This document shows positions 5,051 through 29,000 of a stretch of 33,575 bases of DNA, in pieces. Source of the DNA: an uncultured Bacteroidota bacterium (GTDB taxonomy: Bacteria > Bacteroidota > Bacteroidia > AKYH767-A > JABDAW01). The notes under the pieces were generated by a model. The model was not told the origin of the DNA and did not search any database. It saw only the letters and a program-made list of their open reading frames with translations. The translations under genes and the position numbers were made by a program. Location: NCBI GenBank assembly GCA_903844645.1, contig CAIMUP010000129.1:1-33575 (forward strand). Direction: 5' to 3'. The first letter of the stretch is position 1, and each line of letters opens with the position of its first letter.

Positions 5051-6157
5051 ATGCTGTTCCGCAAGTTATTTATCATTGCAATAATCTTTCTCCTCCCCTT
5101 GTATTCACAGGCATTCTCGTTGTTTGCGCACGAGGCGATTATTGATATGGAATGGGAGAAATCTATCGTCCCTTTATTAAAAAACAAGTACCCTGCTGTA
5201 ACAGATAGCGAGCTGCTGGTTGCGCGTTCTTATGCCTATGGTGGGGCTATTGCGCCCGACATCGGTTATTATTCTATCGGTGGAATTTTCTTTACGCATT
5301 TGTTGCATTATGTTTATACCGGCGACTATATAAATGCCTTGATTGATGAGGCGCAAGATGTGAATGAATATGCTTTTGCGCTCGGGATGTTGTGTCATTA
5401 TTATGCCGATAAATATGGTCATCCGTTGTGTACGAATCGGGTGCTGCCGATGCTTTATCCTAAATTAAGAAAGAAGTTTGGCGATGTGATGACCTACGAT
5501 CAAGCCAAAGTTCCGCATGTAAGAGTCGAATTTGGTTTCGATATTTTGCAAACTGCATTGGGGAATTACGCACCGAAAGCGTTTCATAATTTTATCGGCT
5601 TTCAGGTGAGTCAGCCTGTTATGGAGCGTGCATTTCTGAAGACTTATAAATTGGAGATGAAATCTGTTTTCAATAGTTTGCCATTGGCGATTTCGGTGTT
5701 TCGTTTTATGGTTAAGAATATTTTTCCTGAATTAACGAGAGACGCTTGGCGCATCCGTAAGTCGGTGATTACACAATTAAATCCTTTGCAAGACAAGGCG
5801 AAGTTCAGGTATAAAATTAATAAGGCAGCTTATGAAAAAGAGTTCGGAAAGATTCCTGTAAAGGCAAATGTTATTTCTTTTATCATCGGATTATTTCCTA
5901 AGGTTGGACCATTCGCGGGGTTTAAGTTTAAGGAGCCTACGCCCGAAGCAGAGAAATTATTCAATCAAACAATGGATACGATATTACTGTTATACAGTGC
6001 GCATTTGAAACAATTAGCCTACTCGAATCCTCCCCTCGAAAACATTAATTATGACACAGGAAAAAAGTATGCTCCCAACGATTATAAAGAAGCCGATGAA
6101 GCTATGGAAGACTTATTGGAGAAGCAAAGAAAAAGTAAAACGGCTACCAATTTTTAA
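5051..6157 (+). CDS. zinc-dependent phospholipase C-like secreted protein
   Basis: The 368-residue protein has a signal peptide of about 21 residues (LLPLYSQA/F). The metal-ligand pattern of the Zn_dep_PLPC family is visible: H27 (FAHEAI), D70 (APDIGYY), H83 and H86 (FTHLLHY), H116, D120 and H124 (HYYADKYGHP), and H156/E160 (HVRVEFGFD). Classical members hydrolyse phospholipids, but many Bacteroidota members are uncharacterised, so substrate is inferred only from the fold. It follows the AsmA-like gene by 12 bp and is probably co-transcribed from the module at 3746-3806. The C-terminal half is less conserved, and the end is Lys-rich. All candidate ligands appear intact, so it is probably an active hydrolase of the periplasm or cell surface. 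Confidence 0.85.
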   Translation: MLFRKLFIIAIIFLLPLYSQAFSLFAHEAIIDMEWEKSIVPLLKNKYPAVTDSELLVARSYAYGGAIAPDIGYYSIGGIFFTHLLHYVYTGDYINALIDEAQDVNEYAFALGMLCHYYADKYGHPLCTNRVLPMLYPKLRKKFGDVMTYDQAKVPHVRVEFGFDILQTALGNYAPKAFHNFIGFQVSQPVMERAFLKTYKLEMKSVFNSLPLAISVFRFMVKNIFPELTRDAWRIRKSVITQLNPLQDKAKFRYKINKAAYEKEFGKIPVKANVISFIIGLFPKVGPFAGFKFKEPTPEAEKLFNQTMDTILLLYSAHLKQLAYSNPPLENINYDTGKKYAPNDYKEADEAMEDLLEKQRKSKTATNF

Positions 6158-6200
6158 ATCAAATCCATGTCTCCGGTGATTTTTTTTGAAAAAATATAAC

Positions 6201-6278
6201 TGAACGACAAAAATCAGGGGGTGAACGACAAAATCCATTAAAGTCATTTGTGAGGGTGGAATTTTTTTTGTATTTTCG
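6201..6278 (+). promoter_or_regulatory. promoter and inverted-orientation LytTR-type sites upstream of the LytTR gene
   Basis: TGAACGACAAAA occurs at 6201 and 6222, a 21-bp period. On the minus strand these read TGTCGTTCA, the same motif found three times at 7257-7307. A flank also matches: minus-strand GTCGTTCAGTTATATTTT versus GTCGTTCAGTAACATTTT at 7301 (16 of 18). TATTTTCG (6271-6278) followed by CAGCC is the likely -7 box. This arrangement suggests autoregulation of the LytTR gene. Confidence 0.6.
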
Positions 6279-6314
6279 CAGCCTTACAAATCAATTTAAG
6301 TATTAAAAAAACAC

Positions 6315-7103
6315 ATGGTAGAGGTTATTAACGCAATTGTTTTTGCGGAAGATATGCAAAAGGCTGAAGCAATCGCCAAAGAAATCAAGAGTAAATCCAA
6401 GGGTATCAGAATCCTTGCGAAATGCAGTACTAAAGAGGAATTACTTCGCGAAATCAAGGACGAAGACGATGCAATTATTTTTATTGACATCTATAAAGTA
6501 GTGAAAGATATAGCCACTTATCTTTCATCGTTCGGGCTGAAAAAGAGAAAATTTGTTTGTTTCATACACGAAAACGGCGATGTTCGGGCGACATTGAAAA
6601 AGCTGAAGATTCCTTACATCGAGCATCATTTCACTGAAATTAATTTGGATGTTGAGATTAAAAGAAAAAAGTCTGCAAATCTTATTTTAGAGGAGAAGGA
6701 AATCGTGGTGACGAACGGAGATTCTGTTAAACACAAACCTGTCAAGATTTCGTTGGGCACGAGTTTAGTGTTCAAAACGAAGGGTGGCGAAAAGCATTTT
6801 GAATTAAACAAGATAAAAGGATTTTTTACGGATAAAGAAACCAAAACTGTTATTTTGGTGCTTGCTGTCGGGGAGAAAATCCCGGTGAAAGAGAAGATGA
6901 AATCGCTGCATGAATTGCTCAAGGATTATAAATTCTGTCGCGCACATCGTACCTATATCCTGAATTTATTGCATGTCACTTCTCTTAGCGAAGATTTTAA
7001 ATATGCTGTTTTGCACGATGGACAACTTCCTTTGGGCAGAGCTTATAAACCTGCTTTTATTAAAGAGTGGAGAGATTTTTGGTCCAGTGAGCTAACTCCT
7101 TAA
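6315..7103 (+). CDS. LytTR DNA-binding transcriptional regulator with divergent receiver-like N-terminus
   Basis: The C-terminal part (about residues 146-250) is a LytTR domain, recognised by the segment FCRAHRTYILNLLHV followed by LPLGRAYKPAF, matching the family's F-R-H-R-S/T-Y-I-N core. The N-terminal part (1-110) looks like a receiver domain with acidic residues in strand 1 (AED, 11-13) and D58 in IIFIDIY at the usual phospho-acceptor position. The conserved strand-5 Lys and Pro of receivers are not seen (YIEHHF instead), so it may signal unusually or not by phosphorylation. No histidine kinase is adjacent. LytTR proteins bind paired direct repeats about 21 bp apart, and such pairs flank this gene and precede five other genes in the window, making it the prime candidate regulator of them. 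That link is inference. Confidence 0.85.
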   Translation: MVEVINAIVFAEDMQKAEAIAKEIKSKSKGIRILAKCSTKEELLREIKDEDDAIIFIDIYKVVKDIATYLSSFGLKKRKFVCFIHENGDVRATLKKLKIPYIEHHFTEINLDVEIKRKKSANLILEEKEIVVTNGDSVKHKPVKISLGTSLVFKTKGGEKHFELNKIKGFFTDKETKTVILVLAVGEKIPVKEKMKSLHELLKDYKFCRAHRTYILNLLHVTSLSEDFKYAVLHDGQLPLGRAYKPAFIKEWRDFWSSELTP

Positions 7104-7142
7104 TCGCCCATTAATAAAGGCTTTCAAGACAATTGAGAGTTG

Positions 7143-7203
7143 AAAATTGAGAGTTGAGAATTTTGAAATTCTCAATTATCAAGTCTCAACTCTCAATTTT
7201 TTT
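7143..7203 (+). terminator. 17-bp perfect inverted repeat with T-run, terminator of the LytTR gene
   Basis: Positions 7143-7159 (AAAATTGAGAGTTGAGA) pair perfectly with 7184-7200, followed by further Ts. A competing inner hairpin, TTGAGAATT/AATTCTCAA (7154-7162/7167-7175), could form instead. It lies 40 bp after the stop. The palindrome may also act as an intergenic repeat. Confidence 0.65.
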
Positions 7204-7256
7204 ATGAGCCACTCCTAAAAAAATATTTTAATCTCACAAACGACTTTTGGCGGTTT

Positions 7257-7307
7257 TGTCGTTCGACCCCCGATTTCTGTCGTTCGACCCCTGATTTATG
7301 TCGTTCA
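7257..7307 (+). promoter_or_regulatory. three 21-bp-period TGTCGTTC direct repeats (LytTR-type operator)
   Basis: TGTCGTTC starts at 7257, 7278 and 7299, exactly 21 bp apart, with CCCCnGATTT between copies. The same motif in opposite orientation lies upstream of the LytTR gene. A -7-like GAATTTTG at 7361-7368 (followed by CAGCC) with TTTG at 7341-7344 would drive the heptad-repeat gene downstream. Confidence 0.65.
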
Positions 7308-7428
7308 GTAACATTTTCCCGTTGAAAATAGTTTTTTCGATTTGGTAGTAATATTATCCCGAATTTTGCAGCCGAGAAATATCTCAAAATGTCACGAAGT
7401 AAAAACTGAAAAACTAAAAATCGAAACC

Positions 7429-7896
7429 ATGAGCCAGCGCAAAACATATAATACAAAGGAATGGAAAGGGATGTCGGATTACAAATCCTACAGAACAGAA
7501 ATCTCCACCAGCAATTCCTTCTTATTTCCTGTAAATAGGTCTTTGGACGGTCTTTTTTCCGGTTTTACGTTGAGAATGGCTCAAAACTTTTCATTTTTTT
7601 TCGTCATCTCTTCTGACATGGAGTTCATGTCACATGCTTTGAAGTTCATGTCATCAATATTGAAGTTCATTGTTGATGCTTTCAACTTCATTGTCGAAGC
7701 TTTCAACTTCATTGTCGAAGCTTTCAACCTCATTGTTGATGCTTTCAACTTCATTGTTGATGCTTTGAAGTGCTATGTTGATGCTTTGAAGTGCTATGTT
7801 GATGCTTTCAACTTCAATGTTGATAACTTTGGGAACAAGTATTTCAACATTTTTGTCCAAAAGGAAACAATTAAAAATTTATATAAAACAGTTTAA
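7429..7896 (+). CDS. heptad-repeat protein of unknown function
   Basis: The 155-residue protein is not a recognised family. Residues 1-65 are unremarkable and polar (MSQRKTYN start). Residues about 66-135 consist of nine 7-residue repeats of the type A-F-N-F-I-V-D/E (variants ALKCYVD), an amphipathic heptad pattern encoded by a 21-bp tandem array. The frame opens at 7342, but the -7-like box at 7361-7368 argues for the ATG at 7429. The next gene starts 20 bp after the stop, so they are probably co-transcribed. The opposite strand of the array is also open and would give hydrophilic heptads (NNEVESI), so coding of the plus strand is likely but not certain. A similar heptad gene is at 18531. 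Confidence 0.55.
   Translation: MSQRKTYNTKEWKGMSDYKSYRTEISTSNSFLFPVNRSLDGLFSGFTLRMAQNFSFFFVISSDMEFMSHALKFMSSILKFIVDAFNFIVEAFNFIVEAFNLIVDAFNFIVDALKCYVDALKCYVDAFNFNVDNFGNKYFNIFVQKETIKNLYKTV
7634..7822. repeat. 21-bp tandem array, nine units
   Basis: Units such as ATGCTTTCAACTTCATTG plus TTG repeat without gaps at 7634, 7655, 7676, 7697, 7718, 7739, 7760, 7781 and 7802. Two units (7760, 7781) are identical. Units alternate between CAACTTC and GAAGTTC/GAAGTGC cores, so parts can pair with each other. No spacers exist, so it is not CRISPR. Confidence 0.95.
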
Positions 7897-7916
7897 TCAA
7901 ATTAAATAATAAAATT

Positions 7917-8660
7917 ATGATAATATTAAAAGCACTTTTTTTCGCATTAGCCATGGTAGTGAACAAAGCTCTCCTTCCATTATTTACAACCAGAGGTTTG
8001 AATTCCGGTCAAATTTATACGAAGGCAACCACCGTTACTACCAACATTCAAACGAATGTGTCGACATTCGGGGTAATGACTCCCACTACAGCATCGCTGC
8101 TGACAAGAATAGCGGCGGGGCAAGCGATGGAATCTCAAATTGACATCTTGAGAGGGCAAATCATCACCCTCGAAGGACAACGCGACGAAAATCAGAGACT
8201 CATCATTGATGATATTACCTATAAATATTGCCCTGCCGTAAAGACCAGGGCTGCCGGAGTAAAAAGTATTGTTGATATGGCAGGCATGATATGTAAAGGA
8301 TTCGGTCCGCCAAAAACGATGGACAGGTTCCACAATACTTATCCTGAACCTTATAAAGTTGACCAGAGTATGGGGATGAGAATCATTCAAGGACTTTATC
8401 CCTCCGATGTTCTCTCCAAAGGAAAGCCTTATGGAGCCAAAAGCATCATCTGCTACCGCCAGGTAGGAGGTGTTGCACCGTTGCGAAATAATCACCCCTT
8501 GGCAGTGGCTTTACCTCCATTTTCAAAAATGAAATTGACAGATACTACTTTCGTAACCGGAAATGTTGGACAAACCGTTTATTATATTTTCTGTTGGGTG
8601 GATAAAGATGGCAACCTCGGACCGGAGAGCTTTGTTTATTTTTATACCGTAACGGCGTAA
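7917..8660 (+). CDS. uncharacterised helical/fibronectin-like protein
   Basis: The 247-residue protein begins with a hydrophobic stretch (MIILKALFFALAMVV), then a helical part at about residues 40-100 with TNVSTFGVMTPTTASLL and a charged helix DILRGQIITLEGQRDENQ. The C-terminal half (about 170-247) looks like a beta domain (GGVAPLRNNHP, VGQTVYYIFCWVDKDGNLGP), resembling the fibronectin-like end of small Bacteroidota proteins of unknown function. It follows the heptad-repeat gene by 20 bp and is probably in its operon behind the 7257-7307 operator. No catalytic motif is visible. A REP-like element starts 13 bp after the stop. Confidence 0.7.
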   Translation: MIILKALFFALAMVVNKALLPLFTTRGLNSGQIYTKATTVTTNIQTNVSTFGVMTPTTASLLTRIAAGQAMESQIDILRGQIITLEGQRDENQRLIIDDITYKYCPAVKTRAAGVKSIVDMAGMICKGFGPPKTMDRFHNTYPEPYKVDQSMGMRIIQGLYPSDVLSKGKPYGAKSIICYRQVGGVAPLRNNHPLAVALPPFSKMKLTDTTFVTGNVGQTVYYIFCWVDKDGNLGPESFVYFYTVTA

Positions 8661-8673
8661 AGTAAAAACCAAG

Positions 8674-8809
8674 CATCCTGACAGGCAGGCTTTTTCTGCC
8701 TTCCTGTAAGGTTGCATCATAAACAAAGATAAAAATATGAAAAGTAAAAATATAATAAAAACGAACAACCTTACAGGAAATCGCGAAGGGGCGATTACCT
8801 GTCAGGATG
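8674..8809. repeat. REPIN-like pair of inverted hairpins
   Basis: Left hairpin 8674-8714 has arms CATCCTGACAGG and CCTGTAAGGTTG; right hairpin 8766-8809 has arms CAACCTTACAGG and CCTGTCAGGATG. Each folds on itself (10 of 12 paired), and the two hairpins are exact reverse complements of each other in their 12-bp arms. The centres differ (GGCAG/CTGCC versus AATCGC/GCGATT). Paired palindromes of this form resemble mobile REP doublets. The right hairpin lies inside the small frame at 8737. Confidence 0.75.
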
Positions 8810-8904
8810 TTTACACAATAAAGAATCTTGACCCGGGAATTTATCTGGTAAGAGAAATAGGAACAACAACATCTAATAACTGGCAACTGGTAATAACTAA
8901 ATAA
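8737..8904 (+). pseudogene. short frame ending in a T9SS sorting-domain-like tail
   Basis: A 55-residue frame whose last 30 residues (VYTIKNLDPGIYLVREIG, then NNWQLVITK) resemble the end of a type A T9SS sorting domain (L-x-x-G-I-Y-x-V-R, then K-L-V-I). The YPNP start of such a domain is missing, and the N-terminal half is encoded by the REP-like hairpin. Most likely a decayed 3' end of a secreted-protein gene interrupted by the repeat; a functional short peptide is possible. Confidence 0.5.
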
Positions 8905-8909
8905 ATCTC

Positions 8910-8917
8910 TACCTTTG
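8910..8917 (+). promoter_or_regulatory. TACCTTTG -7 box for the GloVer gene
   Basis: An exact match to TAnnTTTG, 54 bp ahead of the start at 8971. The -33 region is not obvious. Confidence 0.45.
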
Positions 8918-8918
8918 T

Positions 8919-8942
8919 CCCCTTCCAATTCATTGGAAGGGG
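8919..8942. other. perfect 11-bp hairpin just downstream of the -7 box
   Basis: CCCCTTCCAAT and ATTGGAAGGGG pair perfectly around TC. It would be at the very 5' end of the transcript from the box at 8910, or it may close the upstream operon. It has no T-run. Confidence 0.6.
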
Positions 8943-8970
8943 ACTGAAGATGATATAAAAAATAATTACG

Positions 8971-10419
8971 ATGAAAAAAATAATTCTTATAGGAATCGTA
9001 CTAATCCTATTAATTAATCACATGTATGCCCAAACCCCTCATTTGTGGGGATTGGCTAATTTAGGCGGCTTATATAACAAAGGAGTCCTTTATAAAATTA
9101 ATGGGGATGGTACTGGTTATACAAATCATTATAATTTTAATGATACGCTCGGGAGATACCCACAGTATAAATTGATGTTTAATTACAACAATAATAAATT
9201 TTATGGAGTATGTCCGGCTGGAGGTCAATTGGGCGATAATGGTGTTCTATTCAGCTTTGATACTTTGACGAATACCTATTCAGATATACATGATTTCAAC
9301 ACACTTGATTCATCGGGACGAAACCCTTGTAGTAGCCTTATACAGCTTAACAATGGGTTGCTATATGGGTTAGCTGCTCAAACATCAAGTGGTAGTCAGG
9401 CTGGGCTTTTATATAATTTTAATACTACCAATAGTGCTTATACCAAATTAGTGGATTTTGATACTAACTATATTCAATCTCCCTTAGGAGGCGACTTACT
9501 CGAATTTGGAACTAATAAATTGTATGGATTACTTGGTAACGACACTATTCATACAGATCATGGTTCTGGAGGAATTTTTAGGTTTGATGTTGCTACTTCC
9601 ACCTATACAGAATTGTATCATTTTGATTTTTATCACGGTACAGTACCCCAAGGAAATGGTTTAATACACGCTACAAATAATATATTATATGGCATGACTT
9701 ATGGTGGAGGAGATACCACTAATAATTTTACCCAAGGTTATGGCGTAATATTTAGTTTTGATACCACAACAAATACAGTTACCAATTTAATGAACTTTAC
9801 TGGTACTAATGGACATCACCCATATAGAAGCTTTATACAAGCCGCTAATGGTTTACTTTACGGAATGACGAGTCAAGGCGGCACGAATAACAAAGGGGTT
9901 TTATTTAGTTTTAACATAGCTACAAATGCACAAACAATTTTAGTGAACTTTAGTGGAACAAATGGAGCTGACCCTCGAGGTAGTTTGATGCAAGCGAGCG
10001 ATGGGAAATTATATGGTACCACCCGTATTGGTGGTTTAAATAATAAAGGACTTATTTTTAGCTACGATATAATTACTAATACTTTTACAGATATTCACGA
10101 TTTTAATGGTACAGATGGTGCCAGTAGTTATGAACTCGTAGAATTAAATAATGAAACCGTAGGTTTACCAAAAGCATCTATTCAAATTGGAATAAGTATT
10201 TACCCCAACCCCGCCTCCACCTTTCTAAACATTCACCACAGCACCTACACCACCCCAGAAACCTTGCTTATCACCGACCTACTGGGTACTGTAGTTTATA
10301 AAGAAAACCTCACCGGCATTGATAATACCATCTCTATTTCCACCTGGAGCGCAGGCATTTATTTCTATGAGATAAAAGGTGAGAAAGAAATAGTAAGAGG
10401 GAAGTTCGTTATACTATAA
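8971..10419 (+). CDS. GloVer-repeat secreted protein with T9SS type A sorting domain
   Basis: The 482-residue protein has a signal peptide of about 20 residues (ending YAQ). Residues about 28-395 carry repeated GloVer-type units: Y/G-GVLFSF(D/N)..T.T......(L)V.NF.GTNG..P...L(I)QA..G.LYG(M/T)T..GG..NKG. These probably form a beta-propeller-like structure. The C-terminal about 80 residues are a type A sorting domain (ISIYPNPAST, LLITDLLGTVVYKE, WSAGIYFYEIKG, then KFVIL), so it should cross the outer membrane by the T9SS and be released or anchored there. Ligand or enzymatic role cannot be inferred. It is transcribed alone from the box at 8910-8917, as far as can be seen. Confidence 0.88.
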   Translation: MKKIILIGIVLILLINHMYAQTPHLWGLANLGGLYNKGVLYKINGDGTGYTNHYNFNDTLGRYPQYKLMFNYNNNKFYGVCPAGGQLGDNGVLFSFDTLTNTYSDIHDFNTLDSSGRNPCSSLIQLNNGLLYGLAAQTSSGSQAGLLYNFNTTNSAYTKLVDFDTNYIQSPLGGDLLEFGTNKLYGLLGNDTIHTDHGSGGIFRFDVATSTYTELYHFDFYHGTVPQGNGLIHATNNILYGMTYGGGDTTNNFTQGYGVIFSFDTTTNTVTNLMNFTGTNGHHPYRSFIQAANGLLYGMTSQGGTNNKGVLFSFNIATNAQTILVNFSGTNGADPRGSLMQASDGKLYGTTRIGGLNNKGLIFSYDIITNTFTDIHDFNGTDGASSYELVELNNETVGLPKASIQIGISIYPNPASTFLNIHHSTYTTPETLLITDLLGTVVYKENLTGIDNTISISTWSAGIYFYEIKGEKEIVRGKFVIL

Positions 10420-10454
10420 CCTCGTAACAGGTTTAAAAATTAATTTAGAAAAAG

Positions 10455-10577
10455 ATGAAAACATTGAAACTAATATCACTTACCAGACAGGCAATGACAC
10501 CATTAATGATTACAATAATGATGCTTGCTTTTATCGGACTGATTATCGTTTTCTTTAATGTATGTGTAGTATCATAA
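10455..10577 (+). CDS. 40-residue single-pass membrane peptide
   Basis: ATG at 10455, stop at 10575-10577. A short basic N-terminus (MKTLKLISLTRQ) precedes one hydrophobic segment over residues 15-37 (MITIMMLAFIGLIIVFF). It lies 26 bp ahead of the ferritin gene, so it may be the first gene of that operon. A second 40-residue membrane peptide is at 17412. Too short for family assignment. Confidence 0.5.
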   Translation: MKTLKLISLTRQAMTPLMITIMMLAFIGLIIVFFNVCVVS

Positions 10578-10603
10578 ACTGCTTGAATTTATAAAAATTA
10601 CAG

Positions 10604-11155
10604 ATGAATACAAATAGACTTTCAAAAGAAATAGCAAAGGCTTTGAATGCGCAAATGACGAAGGAAGCGTATGCCGCACAAATTTATTTATCGTATGGGT
10701 CATGGGCTGAATCAGAGGGCTTTGGAGGTATCTCTAACTTCCTTTTTCGTCATGCCGCAGAGGAGCGCAATCACATGATGAAGATACTGGAATATATTTT
10801 GAAAAGAGGCGGAAGAGTACATGTAACATCCATCCCTGCTCCTCCCGAAAACCCAAAAAATACATTCAATTGTTTTGAAAAAGTTTTTGCTCATGAAGTG
10901 GATAACACAAAAGCAATTTATGCAATTATTAAACTAAGTTTTGAAGAGGAAGATTGGGCAACCTGGAACTTCATGCAGTGGTTCGTGAAAGAGCAGATAG
11001 AAGAAGAAACGATGGCGATGATCATGCTGGATAAAATGAAAATTGCAGGTGGCGAAAAGGCAAGCGACGAAGCTTTATATACAATAGACAAAGACCTTGA
11101 ACATGATACAGGTGAAGCGAAATCAGCAGAAGATGTTACTACTGAAAAACCATAA
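10604..11155 (+). CDS. ftnA: ferritin (bacterial FtnA type)
   Basis: The 183-residue protein is a non-haem ferritin that stores iron after ferroxidation. The ferroxidase ligands are all present at the positions expected from the E. coli protein shifted by four: E21 (KEAYAAQ), E54 and H57 (AAEERNHMMK), E98 (AHEVDNT), Q131 and E134 (EQIEEE). Residues 1-150 cover the four-helix bundle; the acidic last 30 residues (DKDLEHDTGEAKSAEDVTTEKP) extend beyond most homologues. It sits at the head of a run with a monooxygenase-like protein, DoxX and a flavin reductase, a setting that fits iron and redox stress. No Fur-like box was identified by eye. Confidence 0.93.
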   Translation: MNTNRLSKEIAKALNAQMTKEAYAAQIYLSYGSWAESEGFGGISNFLFRHAAEERNHMMKILEYILKRGGRVHVTSIPAPPENPKNTFNCFEKVFAHEVDNTKAIYAIIKLSFEEEDWATWNFMQWFVKEQIEEETMAMIMLDKMKIAGGEKASDEALYTIDKDLEHDTGEAKSAEDVTTEKP

Positions 11156-11196: not shown

Positions 11197-11466
11197 ATGG
11201 CAGCCCTAACGCATATAAGTTTCCGTGTTCACGATTTCGATCAATGGAAATCGGAATATGATAATGAAGTTGACAATCGAATTAAATTCGGAATACATAC
11301 CGAAAGTGTCTATTGTCATTACAAATATCACCACCAAGTGCTCATTGTTTTCAGTTGGAATGACAGAGCCGAAGCCATGAGTTTTTATCAGTCATCAGAG
11401 TTTAATAAATCAATGACTGCCTCCAGCATTGATGGTACAATGTTAGTAGATATTAGTGAAGAATAA
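11197..11466 (+). CDS. ABM-like small alpha/beta-barrel protein
   Basis: The 89-residue protein has the layout of the antibiotic-biosynthesis-monooxygenase-like dimeric ferredoxin fold: a first strand ISFRVHDFDQWK with the typical D-x-x-x-W, a central strand HQVLIVFSWNDRAEAMSFYQS with the helix start A-x-x-F, and a last strand GTMLVDI. Such proteins are small oxygenases, cyclases or haem/stress-related proteins; no substrate can be assigned. It follows ferritin by 41 bp and is followed by a strong terminator, so the pair probably forms one transcript. Confidence 0.6.
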   Translation: MAALTHISFRVHDFDQWKSEYDNEVDNRIKFGIHTESVYCHYKYHHQVLIVFSWNDRAEAMSFYQSSEFNKSMTASSIDGTMLVDISEE

Positions 11467-14158: not shown

Positions 14159-16651
14159 ATGAAAAAGAATTTAACAATTATCGCAACAGTCCTCGTACTG
14201 TTTTTCTTCCCGAAGGTGATCTTCGGACAGGTTCCTGTCATTACAGTAGAGCCAATCAATCAATCGGTATGTGTAAATAGTGCTGTGAGCTTCACAGTAA
14301 CGGCAACCGGTGCAGGACTTACCTACCAATGGAGGAAAGGGACTGTGAACATAACCAATGGCGGCAACATTTCAGGTGCTGACTCGCCAACATTAATTGT
14401 TGATCCTATCGGGTTTCCTGATGTTTCATCAAACTATAATGTTGTGGTCTCTGGAACCTATTCTCCAAATGCAGTATCAGGGAATGTTACATTAACTGTA
14501 AATGCACATCCAAGTGTAACCATTGACAGTGGTCCGACATCCGTTTGTTCCGGTGATTCTACAACATTGGATGCAGGAATTCATTCTACTTATATCTGGA
14601 GCACTGGTGCCACAGATGAAACAATTAGTGTTACTGCAAGTGGGTTTTATGTGGTCACTGTTAGTAATGATGCTGGCTGCACGAATAGTGCCCATAAGAC
14701 AGTTTCAGTACATACTTCTCCTATGCCGAATATCTTTTCAAGCGGTCTTTCTAATCTTTGCACAGGCGGTACAGCTATCCTGAATGTTGGAGCTACTTTC
14801 GATGCGTATTCGTGGAGTAACGGGGAAACAAATCAAACCATAATTATCAACAACGGAGGTACTTATGTATGCACAGTAACCAATTCCAATGGCTGTACAG
14901 GTACCGCAAGCCAAGTTGCAACCTATACTTTATCTCCTTCAATTACCACCAATGTAGGAGCAACAATTTGTGCAGGACATTCAGTTATTATGGATGTCGG
15001 AACATTCACATCCTGCATTTGGAATACCAATGAAACAACGCAAGCTATTACTGTAAGCACAACAGGAACATATTCAGTAACGGTTACAAATAGTTATGGA
15101 TGTACCGGAACGACAGAACAATTAATCACAGTATATGCCTTGCCTACCCCTACTATAGTTGCGAGTGGTGCAACCACATTTTGCGTGGGCGGATCGGTAA
15201 CATTGGATGCAGGTACAGGATACTATTATTACACATGGAGCAATCCATCAACCACTCAAACCATCAGTGTTACTGGGACAGGAGACTATTCTGTAACTTG
15301 TACAAACGGCTTTGGCTGCACTGGTTCTGCGGCTTCTGCAACACATGTTACGGTAAACCCATTGCCGACAGTGGTCGTAACAGGTAATCTGAACTCATGT
15401 CCTGGTGGTAGTACAACGCTTACAGCAACTGGTTGTACAAACTTCTCTTGGTCTCCTGCAACAGGCTTGAATACGACGAGTGGGGCAACTGTAGTTTGTC
15501 ATCTTCCATCTTCCAGCCCCATAATATACACTGTCGTTGGAACGAATAATTGTGGTAGTTCGCCATTGCAAATTACTGCAACAACGGGATTACCTACATT
15601 CACCAATACCTTTACTAACTGTCATTGCAATGGGGATAGTTCTGCAAGCATCGCAATTAGCGGCATCGGCGGTTCTTCACCTTATTCTTATACGCTGACT
15701 AACACCCTGAATAATACAGTTACTCAATCATCGAACAGCACTGTACAAGGGTTAATTGCAACACGATATAGGGTTAATGTTGTTGATGTAGGAGGATGCG
15801 CGGCTGCTGTTGGATTCGTAACAATTACTCAACCCTCGGCATTAGCTTTTAGCTATTCTAAGACGAATGAAAGTTGCAACGGAACTACCAATGCTTCCAT
15901 AACATTAAGTGCCAACAGCGGCACGCCGGGTGTATCTCCAAATCCCCGTTACTACTATACTTCTAATGCTAATGCAAGTACTCCGACATTCATTGGGGGA
16001 GCATCGAATTCGAGTAGTTATACATTTTCCACAATGCAGATGGGAACTTATTATATTAGAATCAAGGATGCCAATGGTTGCCTGTCTGCCGTTACTAATA
16101 CTGTTAGTATTACTCAACCTGCCGCCCTTACTTATACTGCCGCGGTCGTGGCTTCGTCATGCAGTAGTAGTACCGGACAGATTATTCTTAATACTACCGG
16201 TGGTACGGGCAATTATAATTTCACTAAGAATGGCGGCAGTACATGGCAGTCGGCATATACTTTTACTAATTTATCTCCCGCCACATATCCCGTGAATGCC
16301 AAGGATGCCAATGGTTGCATGAGTACACTTCGCAATGTTACCGTTACATGCAGCGGCAATAGAATCAGTGATGGCGAGGCATCTGGTACTACCACATTCA
16401 ATGTATATCCGAACCCGGCACAGCATAAAGCGGTCATCGAGTTTCAAAACACAGATGCCAATGCCCACGTGGTAATTGAATTTTATAATATCACAGGCGA
16501 CAAGCTATCCACTTTATTTGATAGCGATGTCGAGCCAGGTGTACAATATCAGGCGGAAGTTAATTTGGAAAGCCTCCCATCTGGGATTTACTTCTATCGC
16601 GTTATTAGCGGTGAAAGTACCATTAACAAGAAGCTGATCGTTCTTAAATAA
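14159..16651 (+). CDS. Ig/SprB-repeat surface protein with T9SS type A sorting domain
   Basis: The 830-residue protein has a signal peptide of about 23 residues (FFFPKVIFGQ). Residues about 25-110 form an Ig-like unit (YQWRKGTVNI). Four units of about 70 residues follow with the pattern C-x-G-G-S-V-T-L-D-A-G, Y-x-W-S-N-G, then Y-x-V-T-V-T-N-x-x-G-C-T-G. Three SprB-like units cover about 478-730 (CNGTTNASITL; MGTYYIRIKDANGCLSAV; TITQP). The end, about 735-830, is a type A sorting domain (FNVYPNPAQ, LPSGIYFYRV, KKLIVLK). Paired Cys in each unit suggest disulfides. It is probably an adhesin or gliding-type surface filament component exported by the T9SS, driven by module C. Its signal peptide and Ig units resemble those of the 20567 protein, indicating a paralogous family. 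Confidence 0.88.
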   Translation: MKKNLTIIATVLVLFFFPKVIFGQVPVITVEPINQSVCVNSAVSFTVTATGAGLTYQWRKGTVNITNGGNISGADSPTLIVDPIGFPDVSSNYNVVVSGTYSPNAVSGNVTLTVNAHPSVTIDSGPTSVCSGDSTTLDAGIHSTYIWSTGATDETISVTASGFYVVTVSNDAGCTNSAHKTVSVHTSPMPNIFSSGLSNLCTGGTAILNVGATFDAYSWSNGETNQTIIINNGGTYVCTVTNSNGCTGTASQVATYTLSPSITTNVGATICAGHSVIMDVGTFTSCIWNTNETTQAITVSTTGTYSVTVTNSYGCTGTTEQLITVYALPTPTIVASGATTFCVGGSVTLDAGTGYYYYTWSNPSTTQTISVTGTGDYSVTCTNGFGCTGSAASATHVTVNPLPTVVVTGNLNSCPGGSTTLTATGCTNFSWSPATGLNTTSGATVVCHLPSSSPIIYTVVGTNNCGSSPLQITATTGLPTFTNTFTNCHCNGDSSASIAISGIGGSSPYSYTLTNTLNNTVTQSSNSTVQGLIATRYRVNVVDVGGCAAAVGFVTITQPSALAFSYSKTNESCNGTTNASITLSANSGTPGVSPNPRYYYTSNANASTPTFIGGASNSSSYTFSTMQMGTYYIRIKDANGCLSAVTNTVSITQPAALTYTAAVVASSCSSSTGQIILNTTGGTGNYNFTKNGGSTWQSAYTFTNLSPATYPVNAKDANGCMSTLRNVTVTCSGNRISDGEASGTTTFNVYPNPAQHKAVIEFQNTDANAHVVIEFYNITGDKLSTLFDSDVEPGVQYQAEVNLESLPSGIYFYRVISGESTINKKLIVLK

Positions 16652-16868: not shown

Positions 16869-17126
16869 ATGGAAAACGTAGTAACAACAATGAAGAAGGA
16901 ACAGTCAAACGGCTCTTCCGAAGTGAATCCAAAGTGTGTGGACAATCACACAAGGGCAGCGAAGCATCATCAAGAGGCGGCAAAGTATCATCTTGAGGCG
17001 GCGAAGTTTCATGCTGCAGGGGAGTGTGAGAAGGCTTGCGAAGCCACCGTGAAGGCGCGGGGACATTCTTGCATCGCTCACGAAGCCGAGCAAGAAGTGG
17101 TTAAACAACATGCTTTAATCAGCTAA
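16869..17126 (+). CDS. small His/Ala-rich helical protein
   Basis: The 85-residue protein is hydrophilic with no signal peptide. Residues 28-52 carry three near-perfect heptads of the form AAKHH-x-E / AAKYH-x-E / AAKFH-A-A, then ECEKACEATVKARGHSCIAHEAEQE. The heptads place His on one helix face, so metal binding or a helical bundle is possible. There are four Cys. Similar AA-x-HH-x-x-AA repeats occur in uncharacterised small bacterial proteins. It is transcribed from module D. A hairpin follows at 17139. The protein looks cytoplasmic, unlike the other module targets. Confidence 0.75.
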   Translation: MENVVTTMKKEQSNGSSEVNPKCVDNHTRAAKHHQEAAKYHLEAAKFHAAGECEKACEATVKARGHSCIAHEAEQEVVKQHALIS

Positions 17127-18530: not shown

Positions 18531-18938
18531 ATGATGAAAAAAGCAACATCCCAATTAGCATTCAGCGTGATGACCGTAATTTATGTCATTGTCCAAGCCG
18601 GCATTTATGTAAAGAAAGAGCTTGCTAAAGCTACAAACTTCGATAGTTACAGAAAAATAGTTATTTCTACCGTTGCCGACTTCGGCTACAGGCTGAATAA
18701 CATTATTTATAGCGTTGTCGACTTCGGCTACAGGTTAAATAACGTTATTTATAGCGTTGCCGAATTCGACAACGGGATAAATAAGCTTATTTCCACTTTC
18801 AGGAAGTTCGACAACGCGATAAATAACCTTATTTCCACTTTCAGGAAGTTGGGGAACGCTCTAAATAATCTTATTTACTGCGTTGTCGAACTTCCTGGGA
18901 AATCATTCAAAAATATTTTTATCATAAATAACAACTAA
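18531..18938 (+). CDS. heptad-repeat membrane-associated protein
   Basis: The 135-residue protein has a hydrophobic N-terminus (SQLAFSVMTVIYVIVQAGIYV, possibly a membrane anchor), then from about residue 48 eleven 7-residue units of the type V-V-D-F-G-Y-R / L-N-N-I-I-Y-S and F-R-K-F-D-N-A / I-N-N-L-I-S-T. The heptads are encoded by a 42-bp (two times 21) tandem array. The frame can start at TTG 18513, but ATG 18531 is preferred. It follows the secreted coiled-coil gene by 22 bp and precedes the 18950 gene by 11 bp: an operon. It parallels the pair at 7429/7917. No known family. The end of the frame (KSFKNIFIINNN) is outside the array. Confidence 0.6.
   Translation: MMKKATSQLAFSVMTVIYVIVQAGIYVKKELAKATNFDSYRKIVISTVADFGYRLNNIIYSVVDFGYRLNNVIYSVAEFDNGINKLISTFRKFDNAINNLISTFRKLGNALNNLIYCVVELPGKSFKNIFIINNN
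18672..18881. repeat. 42-bp tandem array, five units (21-bp half-units)
   Basis: Units start at 18672, 18714, 18756, 18798 and 18840, each 42 bp with two heptad-coding halves. Units 1 and 2 (CGACTTCGGCTACAGG) and units 4 and 5 (TTCAGGAAGTT) are most alike pairwise. Confidence 0.92.
18800..18897. repeat. 17-bp perfect inverted repeat at the array end
   Basis: CAGGAAGTTCGACAACG at 18800-18816 is the exact reverse complement of 18881-18897. The arms are 64 bp apart and lie inside the heptad-coding region, so one arm is read in each orientation within the same gene. Confidence 0.9.
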
Positions 18939-28857: not shown

Positions 28858-29000
28858 AACTTTTATGCAAATGCCAAAAACTTTTATGTAAATGTCATAA
28901 ACTTTTATGCAAATGTCATAAACTTCTCCACGATTCCCAAAAACTTTTCCTCGATTCCCAAAAACTTTTCCTTAAATTCGGAAAACTTTTATAAGGCATG
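28858..29000. repeat. 21-bp tandem array, six full units plus a partial, apparently noncoding
   Basis: Units starting AACTTTT/AACTTCT lie at 28858, 28879, 28900, 28921, 28942 and 28963, with a partial unit at 28984. The first three are ATGCAAATG/ATGTAAATG types, the next two GATTCCCAAA types. The plus frame stays open (NFYVNVI-like heptads) but has no start codon; the minus frame (KFLGIEE, KFMTFA) has stops in three units. It lies 59 bp past the end of the 29060 gene and is convergent with nothing coding. Confidence 0.92.

Follow-up and report, generated by a model that had tools for sequence, protein, structure and literature searches.

Do the 21-bp-spaced copies of an 8-bp word, TGTCGTTC, that lie on both sides of a LytTR gene in an uncultured Bacteroidota bacterium form an operator for the protein encoded between them, and if so, what would that operator control? 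A sequence-only reading had proposed divergent operators through which the regulator would govern both its own gene and a downstream operon of heptad/helical character. We posit that the three downstream half-sites probably constitute a LytTR operator through which the regulator encoded at 6315 would activate a unit beginning at 7917, a reading supported by conservation, by a fixed distance to the promoter, and by recurrence of the pair beside LytTR genes of other Bacteroidota.

The window, by which we mean the whole 33,575-nucleotide stretch analysed, contains six copies of TGTCGTTC versus 0.68 expected, and at least six copies occurred in 0 of 100 dinucleotide shuffles. The plus-strand triplet lies exactly where the sequence-only reading placed it (Table 1); the minus-strand pair exists, although it is offset by 1 bp from the positions then given, 6201 and 6222; the 21-bp distance between neighbouring copies holds at both sites; and the sixth copy, at 15108 on the minus strand, falls within the ORF 14159-16651. 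The flank that had been noticed as common to the two sites is real and extends further than described, to about 68 bp: 6202-6269 (minus strand) aligns with 7218-7285 (plus strand) over 68 bp with a score of 66, the best of 500 mononucleotide shuffles of one side reaching 34. This alignment argues for one operator block, duplicated in inverted orientation around the LytTR gene, and the inverted upstream block would be a lineage-specific duplication. Compared by eye, the half-site fits the LytTR consensus, reportedly published in 2002, only in part: GTT agrees, and the following N-A/G-T/G is found in some TGTCGTTC copies only. Elsewhere in the 3.8-Mb genome, the exact pair occurs in one place only, a nine-copy array on contig C88.

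Table 1. Features around the LytTR gene, in window coordinates (G001, a congeneric genome)
Feature	Position	Strand	Details
Inverted operator-block copy	6202-6269	-	Half-sites 6209-6202 and 6230-6223; missing in G001
Presumed -7 box TATTTTCG of the regulator's own promoter	6271-6278	+	Sequence resemblance only
Orphan regulator gene, 262 aa	6315-7103	+	Degenerate receiver-like N-terminal half, C-terminal LytTR DNA-binding domain
Terminator-like hairpin, then T run	7123-7205	+	MFE -33.3 kcal/mol, z -5.4
Downstream operator block	7218-7306	+	Three TGTCGTTC half-sites 7257-7264, 7278-7285, 7299-7306; kept beside the G001 orthologue
Core promoter of the downstream unit	7342-7368	+	-33-like TTGG at 7342, -7 box GAATTTTG at 7361-7368; kept in G001
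21-bp tandem array inside ORF 7429-7896	7666-7824	+	TRF, 7.6 copies
First credible target gene, 247 aa	7917-8660	+	Located behind the promoter

The 6315 protein matches Pfam PF04397 (LytTR) with 38.9 bits against a cut-off of 22.6 (E=1e-9), and the same Pfam search returned no match to a receiver domain. Its N-terminal half is modelled, with modest confidence (mean pLDDT 59.5), as a (beta-alpha)5 fold; ComE is the best full-length fold match, and the LytTR domain of AgrA is a fold match to the LytTR domain. The phospho-acceptor Asp58 is replaced by Asn in the G001 orthologue and by Tyr in a paralogue on contig C7, the Thr and Lys conserved in aligned receivers are missing here, and neither the orthologue nor the paralogue has an intact phospho-acceptor set. 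The Pfam negative and the lost residues speak against a two-component response regulator with an intact receiver, and the 6315 regulator apparently acts independently of phosphorylation. A hairpin of different sequence stands at the same place after the G001 orthologue; together, the degenerate receiver and the terminator-like hairpin favour a regulator that is an orphan, works independently of phosphorylation, and has its target unit transcribed separately. The gene preceding the regulator encodes a phospholipase C-like protein. Among 395 genomes of the class, the pseudo-receiver family was found in this genome only, besides one marginal match (G347), which was discarded as its sequence is that of an ordinary receiver-LytTR protein.

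The -7 box of flavobacteria is TAnnTTTG (PMC9723704), and the TTTG of the downstream promoter starts at 7365; the GTTC cores of the half-sites stand 62, 83, and 104 bp away from TTTG, in the window and in G001 alike. This conserved operator-promoter geometry supports the proposed control of a downstream transcription unit, and the promoter is likely controlled by the repeats. The unit itself has to be redrawn: the supposed operon at 7429 is probably no gene, because its open frame derives from the 21-bp array listed in Table 1, which is unconserved in G001, where an unrelated array occupies the same position. The product of the first credible gene has no Pfam or NCBIfam match above cut-off, and no family was found for it; Rfam gave no matches in 6100-9000, and an RNA element was rejected. 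From the LytTR promoter to a conserved gene at 11197-11466, the genes of the window (7429-11155) are wholly different from those of the corresponding G001 locus (L021, G001:C59), which looks like a swap of the regulator's cargo.

In the mechanism that we propose, the 6315 protein would bind the three half-sites side by side on one helix face, 21 bp being two turns, and the bound regulator would activate the promoter, driving the unit that begins at 7917; we infer that this protein is the one that binds, that it activates instead of repressing, and which gene it targets.

Related genomes, where the sequence-only reading had suggested looking for pairs beside LytTR genes, support the operator through one congeneric genome, G001, from which the orthologue evidence comes. 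Its orthologue of the 6315 protein is 79% identical and followed by three TGTCGTTC copies, two of which continue as GACCCC, and by a promoter closely similar to that of the window; block and promoter distance are both kept. Neither the regulator nor a TGTCGTTC pair is present in G002, a 97% complete genome of this genus. The genome of the window has one further LytTR gene, on contig C7, whose product is 34% identical to the 6315 protein; behind this gene, ACAAGTTCGG is repeated with a 21-bp spacing, at 62 and 83 bp from the gene's own CAATTTTGC. The last GTTC is thus 62 bp from TTTG in the window, in G001, and at the paralogue. Upstream, the paralogue has no lag-21 pair. Its locus (L022:11228-13120) also includes, besides the ACAAGTTCGG repeats and the promoter of the same geometry, a small ORF with weak similarity to a PRK10428 model and a 225-aa gene that belongs to no known family. 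An orphan regulator would keep a strict operator-promoter geometry while recognition word and cargo genes change.

A GTDB scan with TGTCGTTC-N13-TGTCGTTCA yielded, among the matches listed, hits in many phyla, yet linkage to LytTR genes was concentrated in Bacteroidota: a LytTR gene lay within the same stretch of at most 8 kb for 9 of the 26 Bacteroidota matches listed, versus 2 of the 93 others (Fisher p 1.3e-5), and for 8 of the 15 intergenic Bacteroidota matches listed. LytTR-linked pairs mostly stand 93-112 bp ahead of the ATG of a membrane or secreted protein, and a TTTG or TTTA box follows the last GTTC at 41-43 bp in 15 of 16 pairs examined (TTTG in 10), a set that includes a few loci without a LytTR gene in the fetched stretch. 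The 62 bp of the window exceed the 41-43 bp of most other LytTR-linked loci by one repeat unit; 62 bp being 41 bp plus 21 bp, the helix face is the same. Spacing matters as well: within a class sample, two of three 21-bp-spaced non-array pairs outside the genus adjoin a LytTR-type regulator (G042, G119), and where the spacing of the pair was different, 0 of 18 loci (16 places) held a LytTR gene. A single kinase-regulator system, recurring as orthologues, accounts for many of the cross-phylum cases, so the independent lineages number about four, namely that system, Ancylomarina, G119, and the genus of the window. The same TGTCGTTC pair also occurs in Lachnospiraceae (Butyrivibrio; L108, L128, L132), with near-identical linkers in L108 and L132; a LytTR gene was found within the stretch for L128 and L132 but not for L108.

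The repeats could instead be a short member of the 21-bp intergenic arrays that pervade this genome, unrelated to the LytTR gene. In a 349-kb sample of the genome (the window and L183-L202), 42 of 115 intergenic regions (37%) show a match of at least 11/12 at lag 21, any other lag being found in at most 5, and about 76 merged tandem arrays were counted, nearly all with a period of 21 or its multiples and a unit that differs from array to array; extrapolation gives roughly 800 arrays in total. Since such repeats are background here, the 21-bp spacing alone is not evidence for LytTR sites, and repeat spacing misleads in genomes rich in 21-bp arrays; the nine-copy TGTCGTTC array on C88, with no LytTR neighbour, likewise speaks for an array origin. 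However, G001 keeps the operator block even though the array further along the same intergenic stretch has given way to an unrelated one, the promoter distance is exactly that seen at the C7 paralogue, other genomes, with no 21-bp arrays in the loci fetched from them, again have the pair next to LytTR genes, and the third copy matches in the 8-bp word only, its linker being different. Ordinary arrays do produce the 62/83 distances, at 2 of 76 promoter-like sites sampled, but without the GTTC core. With these points on both sides, we regard an array origin as improbable and a LytTR operator as the better account.

The arrays have features of their own. Their density per 10 kb is 2.2 in this genome, 1.0 in G001, 1.4 in G002, and 0.15 in G003 (same family), and 9 of 10 stretches from other families of the order are free of them. 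In the window they occupy 7666-7824, 16951-17012, 18661-18876, and 28858-28990; many contigs end in a 21-bp array, and many units contain short inverted repeats. We found no description in the literature of the TGTCGTTC word or of 21-bp arrays; the genus-wide arrays look more unusual than the LytTR operator and merit separate study. A regulon search of the genome found only two arrays elsewhere that resemble the motif, a long 21-bp array of TGTCGTTCCTCCCCGTTAAAA on C88 (L011:4741-4943) and a related one, TGTTGTTCGACCCCGTTGATA, on C118 (L182, about 1450-1670). Each precedes a secreted-protein gene; the two genes are similar, their promoters are nearly identical, and the two arrays share one register relative to TTTG. 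They are weak regulon candidates because their promoter distance differs, the nearest array motif being 135 bp from TTTG. It is very unlikely that the arrays of the genus are amplified two-turn operator arrays descended from LytTR-type half-sites, with TGTCGTTC still tied to the regulator and the TGTCGTTC/TGTTGTTC arrays of C88 and C118 placing the secreted-protein genes under the same regulator.

Two further questions concern which protein binds and whether the regulator also acts on itself. The repeats are tied to the 6315 protein by adjacency and conservation only, and the genome encodes a second LytTR protein, so the operator could serve the C7 paralogue or an unrelated factor; yet the paralogue is adjoined by a different word of its own in the same geometry, and G002 lacks the 6315-type regulator and the word together, which leaves another binding protein a highly improbable choice. 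Autoregulation, proposed from the divergent arrangement, would be compatible with activation of the unit at 7917 and finds some encouragement in the inverted duplicate, which extends into the presumed promoter region of the regulator. It is nonetheless unsupported, since the upstream copy faces the opposite way to that promoter, contrary to the orientation at other LytTR-linked promoters, is absent from the orthologous locus in G001, and has no lag-21 counterpart upstream of the paralogue; we consider such additional control doubtful. On the minus strand, a TTTG at 6163-6160 lies 42 bp from the reversed copy, the usual LytTR-promoter distance; a promoter there may yield a transcript antisense to the phospholipase gene at its 3' end, or the TTTG may have arisen by chance.

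To judge from its sequence, the locus is most likely a further example of a switch type already known, the LytTR operator, whose direct repeats precede a promoter at a spacing of 20-22 bp, a range into which the 21 bp found here falls. For LytTR regulators of Bacteroidota, of which we found few operator examples in the literature, it supplies a recognition word and a spacing that can be tested. The proximal repeats of AgrA P2/P3 are centred near -60 (PMC4227749), and the operators of RcoM and CoxC have three repeats at even intervals (PMC11347149); like these operators, the window has its direct repeats ahead of a promoter at a spacing of about two helical turns, and it differs from them in its word, TGTCGTTC, and in its orphan regulator with a degenerate receiver. 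LytTR Regulatory Systems (LRS) have direct repeats with 11-13 bp between them in front of a promoter (PMC6193735) and resemble the window in pairing such repeats with a stand-alone LytTR regulator. Unlike in LRS, it is the downstream unit, not the regulator's own promoter, that the repeats shared between genomes would serve, and LRS membership was rejected, there being no co-transcribed membrane inhibitor, with a terminator-like hairpin after the gene and the phospholipase C-like gene before it. Another likeness is to kinase-LytTR systems found in Flavobacteriaceae and Saprospiraceae (Arenibacter, Maribacter, Croceivirga, Eudoraea; loci L064, L093, L114, L116, L117, L136, L177), which carry the identical TGTCGTTC-N13-TGTCGTTC pair about 100 bp ahead of the target ATG. 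The regulators there combine a receiver with a LytTR domain (the receiver was tested on P0010), and wherever the operon was read it also contains a sensor-kinase-like gene, whereas the regulator of the window is only 15-21% identical to them, has no kinase neighbour, and faces an unrelated target.
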